Positions 8,698 to 56,073 of a DNA stretch of 56,195 nt are shown in pieces. Location: positions 1 to 56,195 of the forward strand of contig SVOV01000014.1 in assembly GCA_015066205.1 (NCBI GenBank), read 5' to 3'. Position 1 is the first letter of the stretch, and the number at the start of each line of letters is the position of its first letter. Both the position numbers and the translations under genes were made by a program. The DNA is from Oscillospiraceae bacterium (GTDB lineage Bacteria; Bacillota; Clostridia; Oscillospirales; Acutalibacteraceae). The notes beneath the pieces are model-generated. The model was not told where the DNA came from. It ran no database searches and worked only from the letters and a program-made list of their open reading frames with translations.

Positions 8698-9105
8698 CGG
8701 GTTTTCGCTCGCGCCTTCGGCACATTGCGGATGTAACAACTCCCGGAATTACACTTTTTAGAGATTTGTAACTTTAACACTTTGCACTTTGCATTTTGCA
8801 CTTTGCATTTACACTCCGCTTGTCGGAGTGTATGGCACATTGCGGATGTAACTTTATCTTGGGATTTGGTGTGTGCGATTCTCCGAATTCCGAATTCCGA
8901 AATCCGAATTTGCGCGAAGCGTCACCGTTCCGAATTCCGAATTTGCGCGAAGCGTCACCGTTCCGAAATCCGAATTTGCGCGAAGCGTCACCGTTCCGAA
9001 ATCCGAATTTTCGCTCGCGCCTTCGGCACATTGCGGATTTAACTTTACCTTGGGATTTGGTGTGTGCGATTCTCCGAATTCCGAATTCCGAAATCCGAAT
9101 TTGCA
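8698..9105. repeat. Minisatellite with CCGAATTCCGAAATCCG and GCGCGAAGCGTCACCG units
   Basis: Three direct copies of AATTTGCGCGAAGCGTCACCG-type units run between about 8907 and 8998. They are flanked by a duplicated segment containing TTGGGATTTGGTGTGTGCG (at about 8858 and 9051) and by two copies of TTCGCTCGCGCCTTCGGCAC (near 8705 and 9010). A TTTGCACTTTGCATTTTGCA microsatellite lies at 8776-8810. All frames are open only because of the repeat structure. With 8142-8660 this fills the 1-kb gap between the GH4 and mutase genes. Confidence 0.8.
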
Positions 9106-9139
9106 TTTTGCAGAAATATAACTAAAGGATTAATCTATT

Positions 9140-27272: not shown

Positions 27273-27350
27273 ACTTAAAGTAAAAAGCGCACTTACTCAC
27301 CACTTTTAGTGACAGTGCAAAATGCAGAATGATAAATTACAAATCTTAAA

Positions 27351-27423
27351 TACGGGAGGGGTGACCCCTCCCCTACGATAAACAAACCAACTCATCCGTA
27401 GGGGAGCGGTTTCCGCTCCCGTA
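27351..27423. repeat. G-rich double-hairpin element (copy in 27-kb locus)
   Basis: Two hairpins, GGGAGGGG/CCCCTCCC and GGGAGCGG/CCGCTCCC, are linked so that CCCCTACG pairs with CGTAGGGG and the outer ends TACGGGAG/CTCCCGTA also pair. The related copy at 35096-35165 has a different second stem (GGCGGGG/CCCCGCC) and different outer ends (GCGGG/CCCGC), yet all pairings hold. A short GTGCAAAATGCAGAATG tract precedes it. Confidence 0.75.
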
Positions 27424-27447: not shown

Positions 27448-27704
27448 GTGCCAACGGCACGAGCGAGGCTGACGCGGCTAAATTGACCTGCGGTCAGCTA
27501 AATTCACAACTGCGTTGTGAGCTAAATTGCTTCGCAGCTAAATTTTTGCCTACGGCAAAAGCTCCTCACAGCATAGAGCGTAAGCGGAATAAGGCGAAGC
27601 CTTCCTTCACATTTTCCGCAGGAAAATATTTCACTCATTCCGCAAGGAATGAATTTCACCCGAATATCATTCGGATTTCACCGACACTTCAGTGTCGATT
27701 TCAC
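27448..27704. repeat. Hairpin array A (AGCTAAATT and ATTTCAC linkers)
   Basis: The convergent interval between the AI-2E gene and the next minus-strand gene is a chain of short hairpins. Part one: GTGCC/GGCAC, then GACC/GGTC (27485-27495), CACAAC/GTTGTG (27505-27519), TGC/GCA and TTTGCC/GGCAAA, separated by AGCTAAATT. Part two: GGC/GCC, ATTTTCC/GGAAAAT (27611-27627), TCATTCC/GGAATGA (27635-27652), CCGAAT/ATTCGG (27660-27674) and CGACACT/AGTGTCG (27682-27697). The last four junctions are each the identical linker ATTTCAC (27628, 27653, 27675, 27698). The final linker abuts the terminator at 27709. The open frame across it is a by-product. Confidence 0.85.
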
Positions 27705-27708
27705 TGAT

Positions 27709-27742
27709 AAAAAAAGGGACTGCCCTGCAGTCCCTTTTTTTT
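27709..27742. terminator. Terminator at the stop codon of the hypothetical membrane protein gene
   Basis: Stem GGGACTG/CAGTCCC, extended by A-run/T-run, overlaps the stop codon of the minus-strand gene. It is symmetric, so it can terminate both directions, and it forms the last palindrome of hairpin array A. Confidence 0.85.
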
Positions 27743-28346
27743 ATCTTATTGCGCCCTTGCAGAGAACGGTTTCGGTTTCTGTTGTTTCGCCGTCCTCATT
27801 CTTGATTTCTCTTTCGATCTCCCAGTAGGGAACGAATACATCGTAGATCTCGCCGGCTTCAATGGAGCCTGCACCGATGATGTCGTACTTTTCAGCTGTT
27901 GTTTCGTCTGCTGTCACGGTTTCGTCATCGTCGCGTTCGATACCTGCTTTGTAGATATATTTAAGAAGAGAATCTGCACATTTTACATACTTACCCTTTT
28001 TGCCCTTGAAGGAAGCAACATCGCCGAACTTCTTGTTGAAGGCTTCCTTGAAGGCTTCGTTACCCTCAAGAGAGTTGACCTTTTCGTTCCAAGCGTCAAG
28101 AACAGCGTCTTTTCTGCCGGTTCTGCCTGAAGCAAGAAGGAAGAGGGGCTCATAGATATCAGCGAAGGCTTCAGCGTTATCGCGAAGACCGATGATGATA
28201 TCCTTTTTGGGTGAGGGCTTCATATCGTCAGCGGATTTTTTACCCTTGTTTCTGATAAGGAAGAAAGCAAGAACTGCGCCTGCGCCTACAAGAGCTGAAA
28301 TTATGCTTGCCCAGATAACATTATAGTTTACGATGTAAAAAAGCAT
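27741..28346 (-). CDS. Hypothetical membrane-anchored protein
   Basis: A 201-residue protein I cannot assign. Residues 8-31 form a single N-terminal membrane segment (VIWASIISALVGAGAVLAFF), followed by a Lys-rich stretch and a soluble helical domain (about 48-135) with an acidic C-terminal part that may bind a partner. It is expressed from a strong promoter 70 bp upstream and preceded by AAGGAGATATTC. The AAAAAAGGGACTG terminator overlaps its stop codon, and hairpin array A lies directly downstream on its transcript strand. Confidence 0.7.
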   Translation of the reverse strand: MLFYIVNYNVIWASIISALVGAGAVLAFFLIRNKGKKSADDMKPSPKKDIIIGLRDNAEAFADIYEPLFLLASGRTGRKDAVLDAWNEKVNSLEGNEAFKEAFNKKFGDVASFKGKKGKYVKCADSLLKYIYKAGIERDDDETVTADETTAEKYDIIGAGSIEAGEIYDVFVPYWEIEREIKNEDGETTETETVLCKGAIR

Positions 28347-31082: not shown

Positions 31083-31155
31083 ATGCAAAATGCAAAATGC
31101 TCCGGACTCACGGTACGCGGGAGGGGGAACCCCTCCCCTACGATAGGAGAACCGA
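31083..31155. repeat. TGCAAAA microsatellite and half G-rich hairpin element
   Basis: TGCAAAATGCAAAATGC (31084-31100) is followed by GGGAGGGGG/CCCCTCCC (31119-31137) and CTACGATAGGAGAACC. This matches only the first half of the double-hairpin element at 27351. It lies between the ligA stop and the dipeptidase start, both on the minus strand. Confidence 0.65.
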
Positions 31156-34984: not shown

Positions 34985-35325
34985 CCGAAGGCACGAGCGA
35001 GGCTGACGCGGCTAAATTGACCTGCGGTCAGCTAAATTCACAACAGCGTTGTGAGCTAAATTGCTTCGCAGCTAAATTTTTGCCTGCTTTTCATTGCGGG
35101 AGGGGTGACCCCTCCCCTACGATAGAAGAACCAACTCACCCGTAGGGGCGGGGTATCCCCGCCCGCATAGAGCGTAAGCGGAATAAGGCGAAGCCTTCCT
35201 TCACATTTGCGGAGCAAATATATCACTCATTCCGCAAGGAATGAATATCACCCGCGTGACGGCGGATATCACTCGTTTCGAAGAAACGAATATCACTGCA
35301 TTGGTCAAAAGCTTTTGAACAATGC
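34985..35325. repeat. Hairpin array B (AGCTAAATT and ATATCAC linkers)
   Basis: Second array, also in a convergent interval. It begins GCC-GAA-GGC and GACGCGGCTAAATT, then GACC/GGTC, CACAAC/GTTGTG (loop AGC here, TGC in array A) and TGC/GCA joined by AGCTAAATT. It is interrupted by the double-hairpin element at 35096-35165, then resumes: GGC/GCC, ATTTGC/GCAAAT (35205-35219), TCATTCC/GGAATGA (35227-35244), CCGC/GCGG (35252-35265) and TCGTTTC/GAAACGA (35273-35289). The four junctions are ATATCAC (35220, 35245, 35266, 35290). The last linker leads into a palindrome (35298-35325) on the stop codon of the phosphatase gene. Confidence 0.85.
35096..35165. repeat. G-rich double-hairpin element inside array B
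   Basis: GGGAGGGG-TGA-CCCCTCCC followed by GGCGGGG-TAT-CCCCGCC, with CCCCTACG/CGTAGGGG pairing between them and GCGGG/CCCGC closing the whole. In array A the same element lies upstream of the array; here it sits inside it, between the two linker sections. Confidence 0.75.
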
Positions 35326-55578: not shown

Positions 55579-55806
55579 AGACGGTAGCTGATGTTCGGCA
55601 CGGGAGTGCCGGAGGAAAAGTTTTGCTTGAGCTTTTTCAAAAGCTCACGGTGTCAAGAGGCAGAGCCTCTTGTCGCTGTCCTGAGACAGCGAAATTCCTG
55701 TTGCTTATTGAAGTGCAGGAAAGTTGTTAAGAAAACCCTCGCCGGGGGTTTTCTTAAGTGCAAAGCACATAATAAATAACGATGAATTTTTATTTCGTAA
55801 GAAGAC
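55579..55806 (+). repeat. Multi-hairpin element, copy 2
   Basis: A 228-nt unit repeated at 55846-56073 with a 267-nt offset. Hairpins in order: CGGCAC/GTGCCG (55596-55611), GAGCTTTT/AAAAGCTC (55629-55646), CAAGAGGC/GCCTCTTG (55654-55672), CGCTGTC/GACAGCG (55674-55691), TTAAGAAAACCC/GGGTTTTCTTAA (55727-55757), GTGC/GCAC (55758-55768). Differences from copy 3 fall mostly in loops or unpaired bases. The frames open across it are repeat by-products. Confidence 0.85.
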
Positions 55807-55845: not shown

Positions 55846-56073
55846 AGACGGTAGCTGATGTTCGGCACGGGAGTGCCGGAGGAAAAGTTTTGCTTGAGCT
55901 TTTTCAAAAGCTCACGGTGTCAAGAGGCAGAGCCTCTTGTCGCTGTCCGCAGACAGCGAAATTCCTGTTGCTTATTGAAGCGCAGGAAAGTTGTTAAGAA
56001 AACCCTCGCCGGGGGTTTTCTTAAGTGCGAAGCACATAATAAATAACGATGAATTTTTATTTCGTAAGAAGAC
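55846..56073 (+). repeat. Multi-hairpin element, copy 3
   Basis: Nearly identical to copy 2, including the trailing AACGATGAATTTTTATTTCG segment, and joined directly to the right terminal inverted repeat. The fourth hairpin keeps stem CGCTGTC/GACAGCG but has loop CGCA instead of CTGA. With copy 2 and the terminal repeat it accounts for all of 55551-56195; no gene is present. Confidence 0.85.

Follow-up and report, generated by a model that had tools for sequence, protein, structure and literature searches.

The array of short hairpins at positions 27448–27742 of the window (the whole 56,195-nucleotide stretch that was analysed, from an Oscillospiraceae bacterium) is best explained as a non-autonomous copy, without a gene, of a dispersed mobile element of the S23p type whose hairpins are maintained by pairing. 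We favour this reading with some reserve; in all probability, what remains here is the non-coding part of a previously unrecognised mobile element. Such an element would consist of a palindrome or terminator followed by an oriented 7-nt word that alternates with short perfect hairpins. Its arrays would often be built of two inverted halves with complementary words, and complete copies would add a gene for a four-helix-bundle protein of PF05635 (S23p/IVS, with the Avd fold). The arrays are dispersed, their word is constant, their stems are compensated, their halves are complementary, and they frequently start at palindromes and at the 3' ends of tRNA and tmRNA genes. They are linked to PF05635 both physically and in copy number, and in this genome two different tRNA genes are each followed by a copy of one element. 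We infer that the window arrays are copies of this element that lack the gene.

The right half of the array (27591–27704, minus strand) belongs to Family I, in which the word reads GTGAAAT on the minus strand. Its stems are AAGGC/GCCTT and those of ATTTTCC-gca-GGAAAAT (27611–27627), TCATTCC-gcaa-GGAATGA (27635–27652), CCGAAT-atc-ATTCGG (27660–27674) and CGACACT-tc-AGTGTCG (27682–27697), and its junctions are CCTTCAC at 27604 and ATTTCAC at 27628, 27653, 27675 and 27698. The earlier note had described exactly these four ATTTCAC junctions, with perfect hairpins of 15–18 nt and mutually unrelated stems beside them, and the sequence bears out both statements. The array starts at the base of a terminator-like, near-perfect palindrome of 40 nt (27706–27745, no strand assigned), which contains a perfect 15-bp stem at 27709–27741 and overlaps the stop codon of a minus-strand gene (27741–28346). 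This palindrome had been overlooked, as had a second word, GCTAAAT, which occurs four times in the left half (27477–27560, plus strand) at 27477, 27497, 27521 and 27537, alternating with the hairpins TGACC-tgc-GGTCA, TCACAAC-tgc-GTTGTGA, TGCttcGCA and TTTTGCC-tac-GGCAAAA. The GCTAAAT word and the TGACC..GGTCA hairpin also adjoin a PF05635 gene at another locus (L295); there, the copies of the GCTAAAT array flank the gene in direct and not in inverted orientation. The centre of the window array (27561–27590, no strand assigned), GCTCCTCACAGCATAGAGCGTAAGCGGAAT, is also present in L211. At the start of the interval, the hairpin GTGCC(aac)GGCAC (27448–27460, no strand assigned) is probably part of an adjoining repeat module. 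The left word GCTAAAT and the right word ATTTCAC are unlike, whereas two-sided sister arrays mostly have complementary halves. Counting perfect hairpins with a stem of at least 5 and a loop of 2–4, we found 10 in 27448–27742, whereas 2000 dinucleotide shuffles averaged 0.99 and never exceeded 5; among 948 overlapping window tiles of 295 bp the maximum was 9, and none had 10. Chance is therefore ruled out.

A second array of similar build, also overlooked before, lies at 35011–35325. Its left half (35011–35077, plus strand) carries GCTAAAT at 35011, 35031, 35055 and 35071, its right half (35185–35296, minus strand) carries ATATCAC at 35220, 35245, 35266 and 35290, and the near-perfect palindrome GCATTGGTCAAAAGCTTTTGAACAATGC (35298–35325, no strand assigned) stands at its base.

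Other hairpin repeats occur in the window. Three copies of one unit (186–282, 55596–55692 and 55863–55959) are built as CGGCAC(ggga)GTGCCG, TGAGCTTTT(tc)AAAAGCTCA, CAAGAGGC(aga)GCCTCTTG and an 8-bp hairpin with a variable stem, and L230 has a unit resembling this repeat downstream of the orthologue of a window gene. Beside the arrays there are also dispersed palindromes of the form GTAG-GGGAGGGG(tga)CCCCTCCC-CTACGA, whose stems vary while their flanks stay constant; in the window they lie at 27354–27423, about 31119–31137 and 35098–35164. The words TGCAAAATGCAGAATG and GAATTCCGAAATCCGAATT, at 27316–27335 and 8706–9112, are like the word arrays that flank PF05635 genes in L292, L309, L315 and L328 and in L294 and L302; judged by this likeness in sequence, they may be what is left of further elements of this class.

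The earlier note knew of no named element with this form, and here it has to be corrected. The right half of the array passes the gathering cut-off of the Rfam family Gut-1 (RF01706) at 27623–27706 on the minus strand (51.4 bits; gathering 50), and this is the only Rfam match above gathering in the window; the second array gives a sub-threshold match of 48.3 bits at 35215–35298. Gut-1 was described as a non-coding RNA and, in the part of the report available, as found only in environmental sequence from the human gut (Weinberg 2010; PMC2864571). The window copy is like the published RNA, which has three hairpins and UGAAAU joining words (PMC2864571). Unlike Gut-1 as presented in that part of the report, arrays of the window type are dispersed, with variable stems, several word types, basal palindromes and a linked gene family (PMC2864571). 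The genome itself (2.71 Mb in 83 contigs) holds at least 79 Gut-1 matches with an E value of 0.001 or better, at least 36 of them above the cut-off, among the 150 of 495 candidates that were scored; in this list, an overlapping match at 27583–27661 takes the place of 27623–27706. At least six matches are no more than about 400 bp from the end of a contig, which fits repeats that break assemblies. Matches are present in 43 of 59 genomes, mostly from the same genus, family and order, and in only three of 299 genomes drawn across the phylum (the window's own genome included in both counts); thus, the word family is mainly confined to the order of the window. Among the matches listed in an exact-pattern scan of named genomes were gut Clostridia, Oscillospiraceae and unrelated taxa, the last of which may be chance matches.

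Across all of the loci examined, the word RTGAWAT/ATWTCAY is constant, and 361 of the 613 distinct segments between words are perfect palindromes. The reversed word yielded 4 segments and a permuted word 31, with no perfect palindrome among them. The 17 copies of Family I in the genome, which include both window arrays, follow one arrangement (word, HP1, word, HP2, word, HP3, word, HP4 and a GTGAAGG-type junction), and slots 1–4 hold 5, 5, 2 and 2 distinct perfect stems as alternatives. Stem pairs that differ at one base pair were compensated in 179 cases, one-sided in 78 and otherwise changed in 25; these comparisons are between related sequences, and the counts are not independent events. 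The proposal that the linker is constant while the hairpins vary and keep their two-fold symmetry is thus upheld. The opposite pattern, which the earlier note associated with a relic repeat (stems fixed in sequence that decay without compensation), is not what the paralogous and related arrays display.

Many arrays have RTGAWAT in the left half and ATWTCAY in the right half. Among 78 two-sided arrays (three ties dropped), all but one have a left word that is complementary to the right word (77 of 78); with both words read on one strand, the W position is A/A in 58, T/T in 19 and discordant in one. Complementary halves would be able to pair as a spine from which the hairpins branch off. Among five elements that were folded, L261 and L192 form a word-paired spine under DNA parameters; in the RNA folds the words of L261 are partly paired and those of L192 are not. 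L200, L213 and the window array gave no spine with either set of parameters, and in L200 and L213 the 5' end is predicted to pair with the centre. A spine of paired halves is a possible structure and not an established one, because only some of the five models form it. Relatives follow a like plan with other word pairs (for instance GTGATGT/ACATCAC, ATGAAGC/GCTTCAT, GTGAAGT/ACTTCAC, GTTATGA/TCATAAC and TCGATAT/ATATCGA), which were read by eye with 6-mers counted.

In Family I, 11 of 17 copies have their start no more than 5 nt from a palindrome of eight or more pairs. Another array family sits behind tRNA genes; a tRNA gene is found in 12 of 40 array loci of the genome, and a tRNA or tmRNA gene in 18 of 40 array loci of its relatives. 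Five locus pairs were compared between species (L193/L320, L316/L234, L316/L244, L205/L251 and L191/L296), giving six junctions at five tRNA genes, and in each the homology stops 0–16 nt beyond the 3' end of the tRNA. Different arrays lie beyond all five junctions that were inspected, the sixth being that at the tRNA-Arg gene of L320, and the array in L234 is a Gut-1 match. At a site without tRNA (L210/L245), homology stops at the palindrome and first word. Within the genome, one unit of palindrome, array and gene lies behind both tRNA-Gln (L316) and tRNA-Ser (L319), with 89.5% identity over 476 bp and a shortened gene in L319, and a second pair (L198/L214) lies behind tRNA-Thr and tRNA-Ser with 80% identity over 643 bp. 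At another non-tRNA site, L288/L289, two genomes (G004 and G007) each carry a PF05635 element between flanks that are 95% and 88% identical; the two elements differ and point in opposite directions. In L302/L311, one locus in two species, the words differ alike on both sides of the PF05635 gene; by sequence, this may reflect either concerted change or replacement of the whole element. No clean empty site with a target duplication was found among the loci compared. Orthologues of the two genes that flank the window array (L168–L170 and L228–L231) lack an array at that place; their gene order differs, so that these loci do not amount to a clean empty site. In L246 and L325 (G017) and in L321 (G006), the arrays or PF05635 elements come after the 3' end of a gene common to all three, with about 92% identity; this gene looks like one for a serine recombinase that terminates in a tRNA-like att remnant.

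The gene linked to the arrays emerged from clustering of open frames in 199 loci, where a four-helix-bundle protein ranked first, with 14 loci. In 10 of these the gene lies within about 60 bp of the array and reads away from it; in the other four (L049, L058, L233 and L266) the short query located no gene. The family, PF05635, is present in 43 of the 59 genomes and in 57 of the 299 phylum genomes, the window's own included in both. Inverted repeated words stand beside 27 of 44 near PF05635 genes and none of 36 control genes (those for Y1 and an AI-2E transporter, and a conserved uncharacterised gene), while shuffled flanks gave 0–2 of 44. This complexity-filtered test counts a 6-mer and its complement when each occurs at least three times in the flanks; the threshold was not preset, having been chosen after a k-mer test with a minimum count of two gave no separation (44/44 versus 33/36) because A-runs were counted. 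The near set comprises 50 loci, 30 of them the best matches of the search and 20 chosen by hand, for several of which the genome was already known to be array-rich, and L325 was already known to adjoin a Gut-1 match; the gene was located in 46, of which 45 were distinct and 44 had enough upstream DNA. The remaining 17 of 44 near genes fail the word test, and only 7 of 29 distant PF05635 genes pass it (shuffled, 0–1). An inverted repeat between upstream and downstream flanks with z of at least 5 was found for 19 of 45 near genes, for 16 of 30 distant genes and for none of 35 controls; z was below 1 for 7 of the 30 distant genes. A tRNA or tmRNA gene is present in 13 of the 50 PF05635 loci and in none of the 34 control loci scanned (of 36). 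The separation by upstream hairpins is modest, with at least three in 18 of 44 PF05635 loci and 4 of 36 controls (rank test on counts, p=0.017; Fisher, p=0.005). Strict detection of hairpin chains found arrays in only 7 of 30 PF05635 loci, since many have words without hairpins.

Copy numbers agree with this physical linkage. Gut-1 and PF05635 counts correlate across the 59 genomes (rho 0.78), as does their presence (p=2e-6; outside the window's genus, p=4e-4), although the sequences behind these linkage counts are related, so that the events cannot be taken as independent. Of the 131 listed Gut-1 matches from genomes other than the window's own, at least 12 lie no more than 700 bp from a PF05635 match, as judged by comparison with 20 PF05635 places, the contigs having been selected by eye. 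Flank words are common to 15% of locus pairs with protein identity below 30% and to 68% of those at 60–85%, and the correlation of word sharing with protein identity was reached by none of 2000 permutations. In four genomes Gut-1 occurs but PF05635 does not, among them G014 with its 18 Gut-1 matches, and in four others the reverse holds. The window's genome has eight PF05635 matches, none of them on the window's contig (C46), and the sister copies L198, L214 and L318 carry the gene.

The predicted structure of one such protein (L114; pLDDT 91) matches 2RLD with a TM score of 0.88 and 2GSC with 0.85, and the diversity-generating retroelement accessory protein Avd (4DWL) with 0.84 (E 0.07). NCBIfam assigns the protein to TIGR02436, and PADLOC annotation gave no defence-system match. 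We know of no nuclease or recombinase activity of PF05635 proteins. This point weighs against the proposed element, as do the genomes in which Gut-1 and PF05635 do not go together, the lack of the gene on the window's contig, the many PF05635 genes without the repeat signal, the want of a clean empty site and the Coxiella report cited below. Scanning of 15 of the 30 distant PF05635 loci placed four of them in 23S rRNA and a fifth in RNase P RNA (L360, where the element is inside the gene and the RF00010 match spans 1229–2003); the classical 23S rRNA intervening sequence (IVS) thus belongs to the same set. The sister elements share its protein family (PF05635/TIGR02436), and the IVS gene is often flanked by inverted repeats. 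Unlike it, the window copy is intergenic, not in a 23S rRNA helix, and without a PF05635 frame. The available part of one account gives S23p no known function, treats IVS mobility as proposed and not demonstrated, and reports that in the Coxiella IVS tandem heptamers precede an S23p gene that is probably not produced (PMC4990558). The Coxiella heptamers in that account are in tandem, whereas those of the window alternate with variable hairpins (PMC4990558). In searches of open-licence PMC literature, none of the listed titles and beginnings of abstracts linked Gut-1 or such arrays to S23p.

Other explanations have to be weighed against this element. If Gut-1 is what its Rfam entry states, a structured non-coding RNA in many copies, its hairpins would be selected as RNA; the above-threshold match and the compensated stems fit this, and single mismatches on the ATWTCAC strand are G.T in 44 cases and A.C in 19 (p=0.002). 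However, without the outermost and innermost pairs the excess falls to 21 versus 10 (p=0.07). Read on the same strand, 161 of 249 triloops have the form GNA and 113 of 177 tetraloops the form GNNA, and the closing pair is C-G in 396 of 453 loops; in DNA, hairpin loops of the types C(GNA)G and C(GNNA)G are exceptionally stable. The third base of the GNNA tetraloops is a purine in 62 and a pyrimidine in 51, and they are thus not the GNRA loops expected for RNA. Dozens of copies, many starts behind terminators and a word that varies between families also speak against selection as RNA, which we regard as improbable. We give equally little credence to a functionless, passive repeat whose palindromes are kept by a mutational process such as hairpin template switching or quasipalindrome correction. 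Templated correction would also yield perfect stems and compensated changes, and the words of L302/L311 differ alike on both arms; however, the non-random loops and the conservation of words and slots are not expected of it.

The chain of hairpins might instead extend a terminator or insulate transcription, blocking read-through before the next promoter, as arrays appear by eye to lie between a terminator-like palindrome and a promoter-like start of the next gene. However, the array hairpins lack T tracts and are followed by ATTTCAC or GCTAAAT, only 27706–27745 fits, and the words, the inverted halves and the PF05635 linkage are left unexplained, so that this reading is less credible still. 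REP sequences likewise combine an oriented word with a hairpin, in inverted pairs dispersed between genes, and their stems are constant within a genome. A REP/BIME-like repeat moved by a Y1 enzyme (RAYT/IS200), or a reverse-transcriptase element (DGR, retron or group II), is nevertheless very unlikely. The window arrays differ from REP/BIME with RAYT in their variable stems and lack of Y1 linkage, and G058 has 48 Gut-1 matches and no Y1. The Y1 transposase was rejected as mobiliser, as it does not co-occur with Gut-1 across the 59 genomes (p=0.38). A reverse-transcriptase element was likewise rejected, with no PF00078 match in the window's genome, G006, G017, G038, G046 or G058, all incomplete assemblies. 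The fold that PF05635 shares with Avd in a structure search (4DWL, 8UB7; TM about 0.8) would favour the retroelement reading, but identity to Avd is 11–15%, and no reverse transcriptase was found in the genome. Mitochondrial double-hairpin or repetitive hairpin-forming elements are alike in being dispersed intergenic hairpins, with a mobility mechanism given as unknown; the available part of that report describes no constant-word arrays or linked protein gene (PMC2800124).

For the S23p-type element, a mechanism can be proposed. The S23p-type protein would recognise the word, together with the hairpin. The hairpins would fold out in one strand and act as spacers, so that the stem sequence would be free to change while pairing is kept; the folded strand may be single-stranded DNA at replication or a transcript, and both readings stand. 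Complete copies would supply the protein in trans and thereby move the element, and the array would be delivered beside existing hairpins such as terminators.

A wider proposal, which we offer tentatively and hold to be rather doubtful, is that S23p-type proteins define a widespread class of transposable elements without a canonical transposase. They would recognise a lineage-specific heptamer in inverted arrays and target hairpins such as terminators and the helices of rRNA and RNase P RNA. Word and stems would be rewritten in concert on both arms with complementarity kept, and Gut-1 and the 23S IVSs would be two faces of the class. If this is true, two orphans, the Gut-1 'RNA' and the S23p four-helix-bundle protein, become parts of one element, and S23p gains a testable ligand, the heptamer word beside a hairpin. 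The arrays would also offer a natural system for the upkeep of perfect palindromes despite sequence change, and they would caution that covariation by itself can lead to mobile DNA hairpins being classed as a family of non-coding RNAs.
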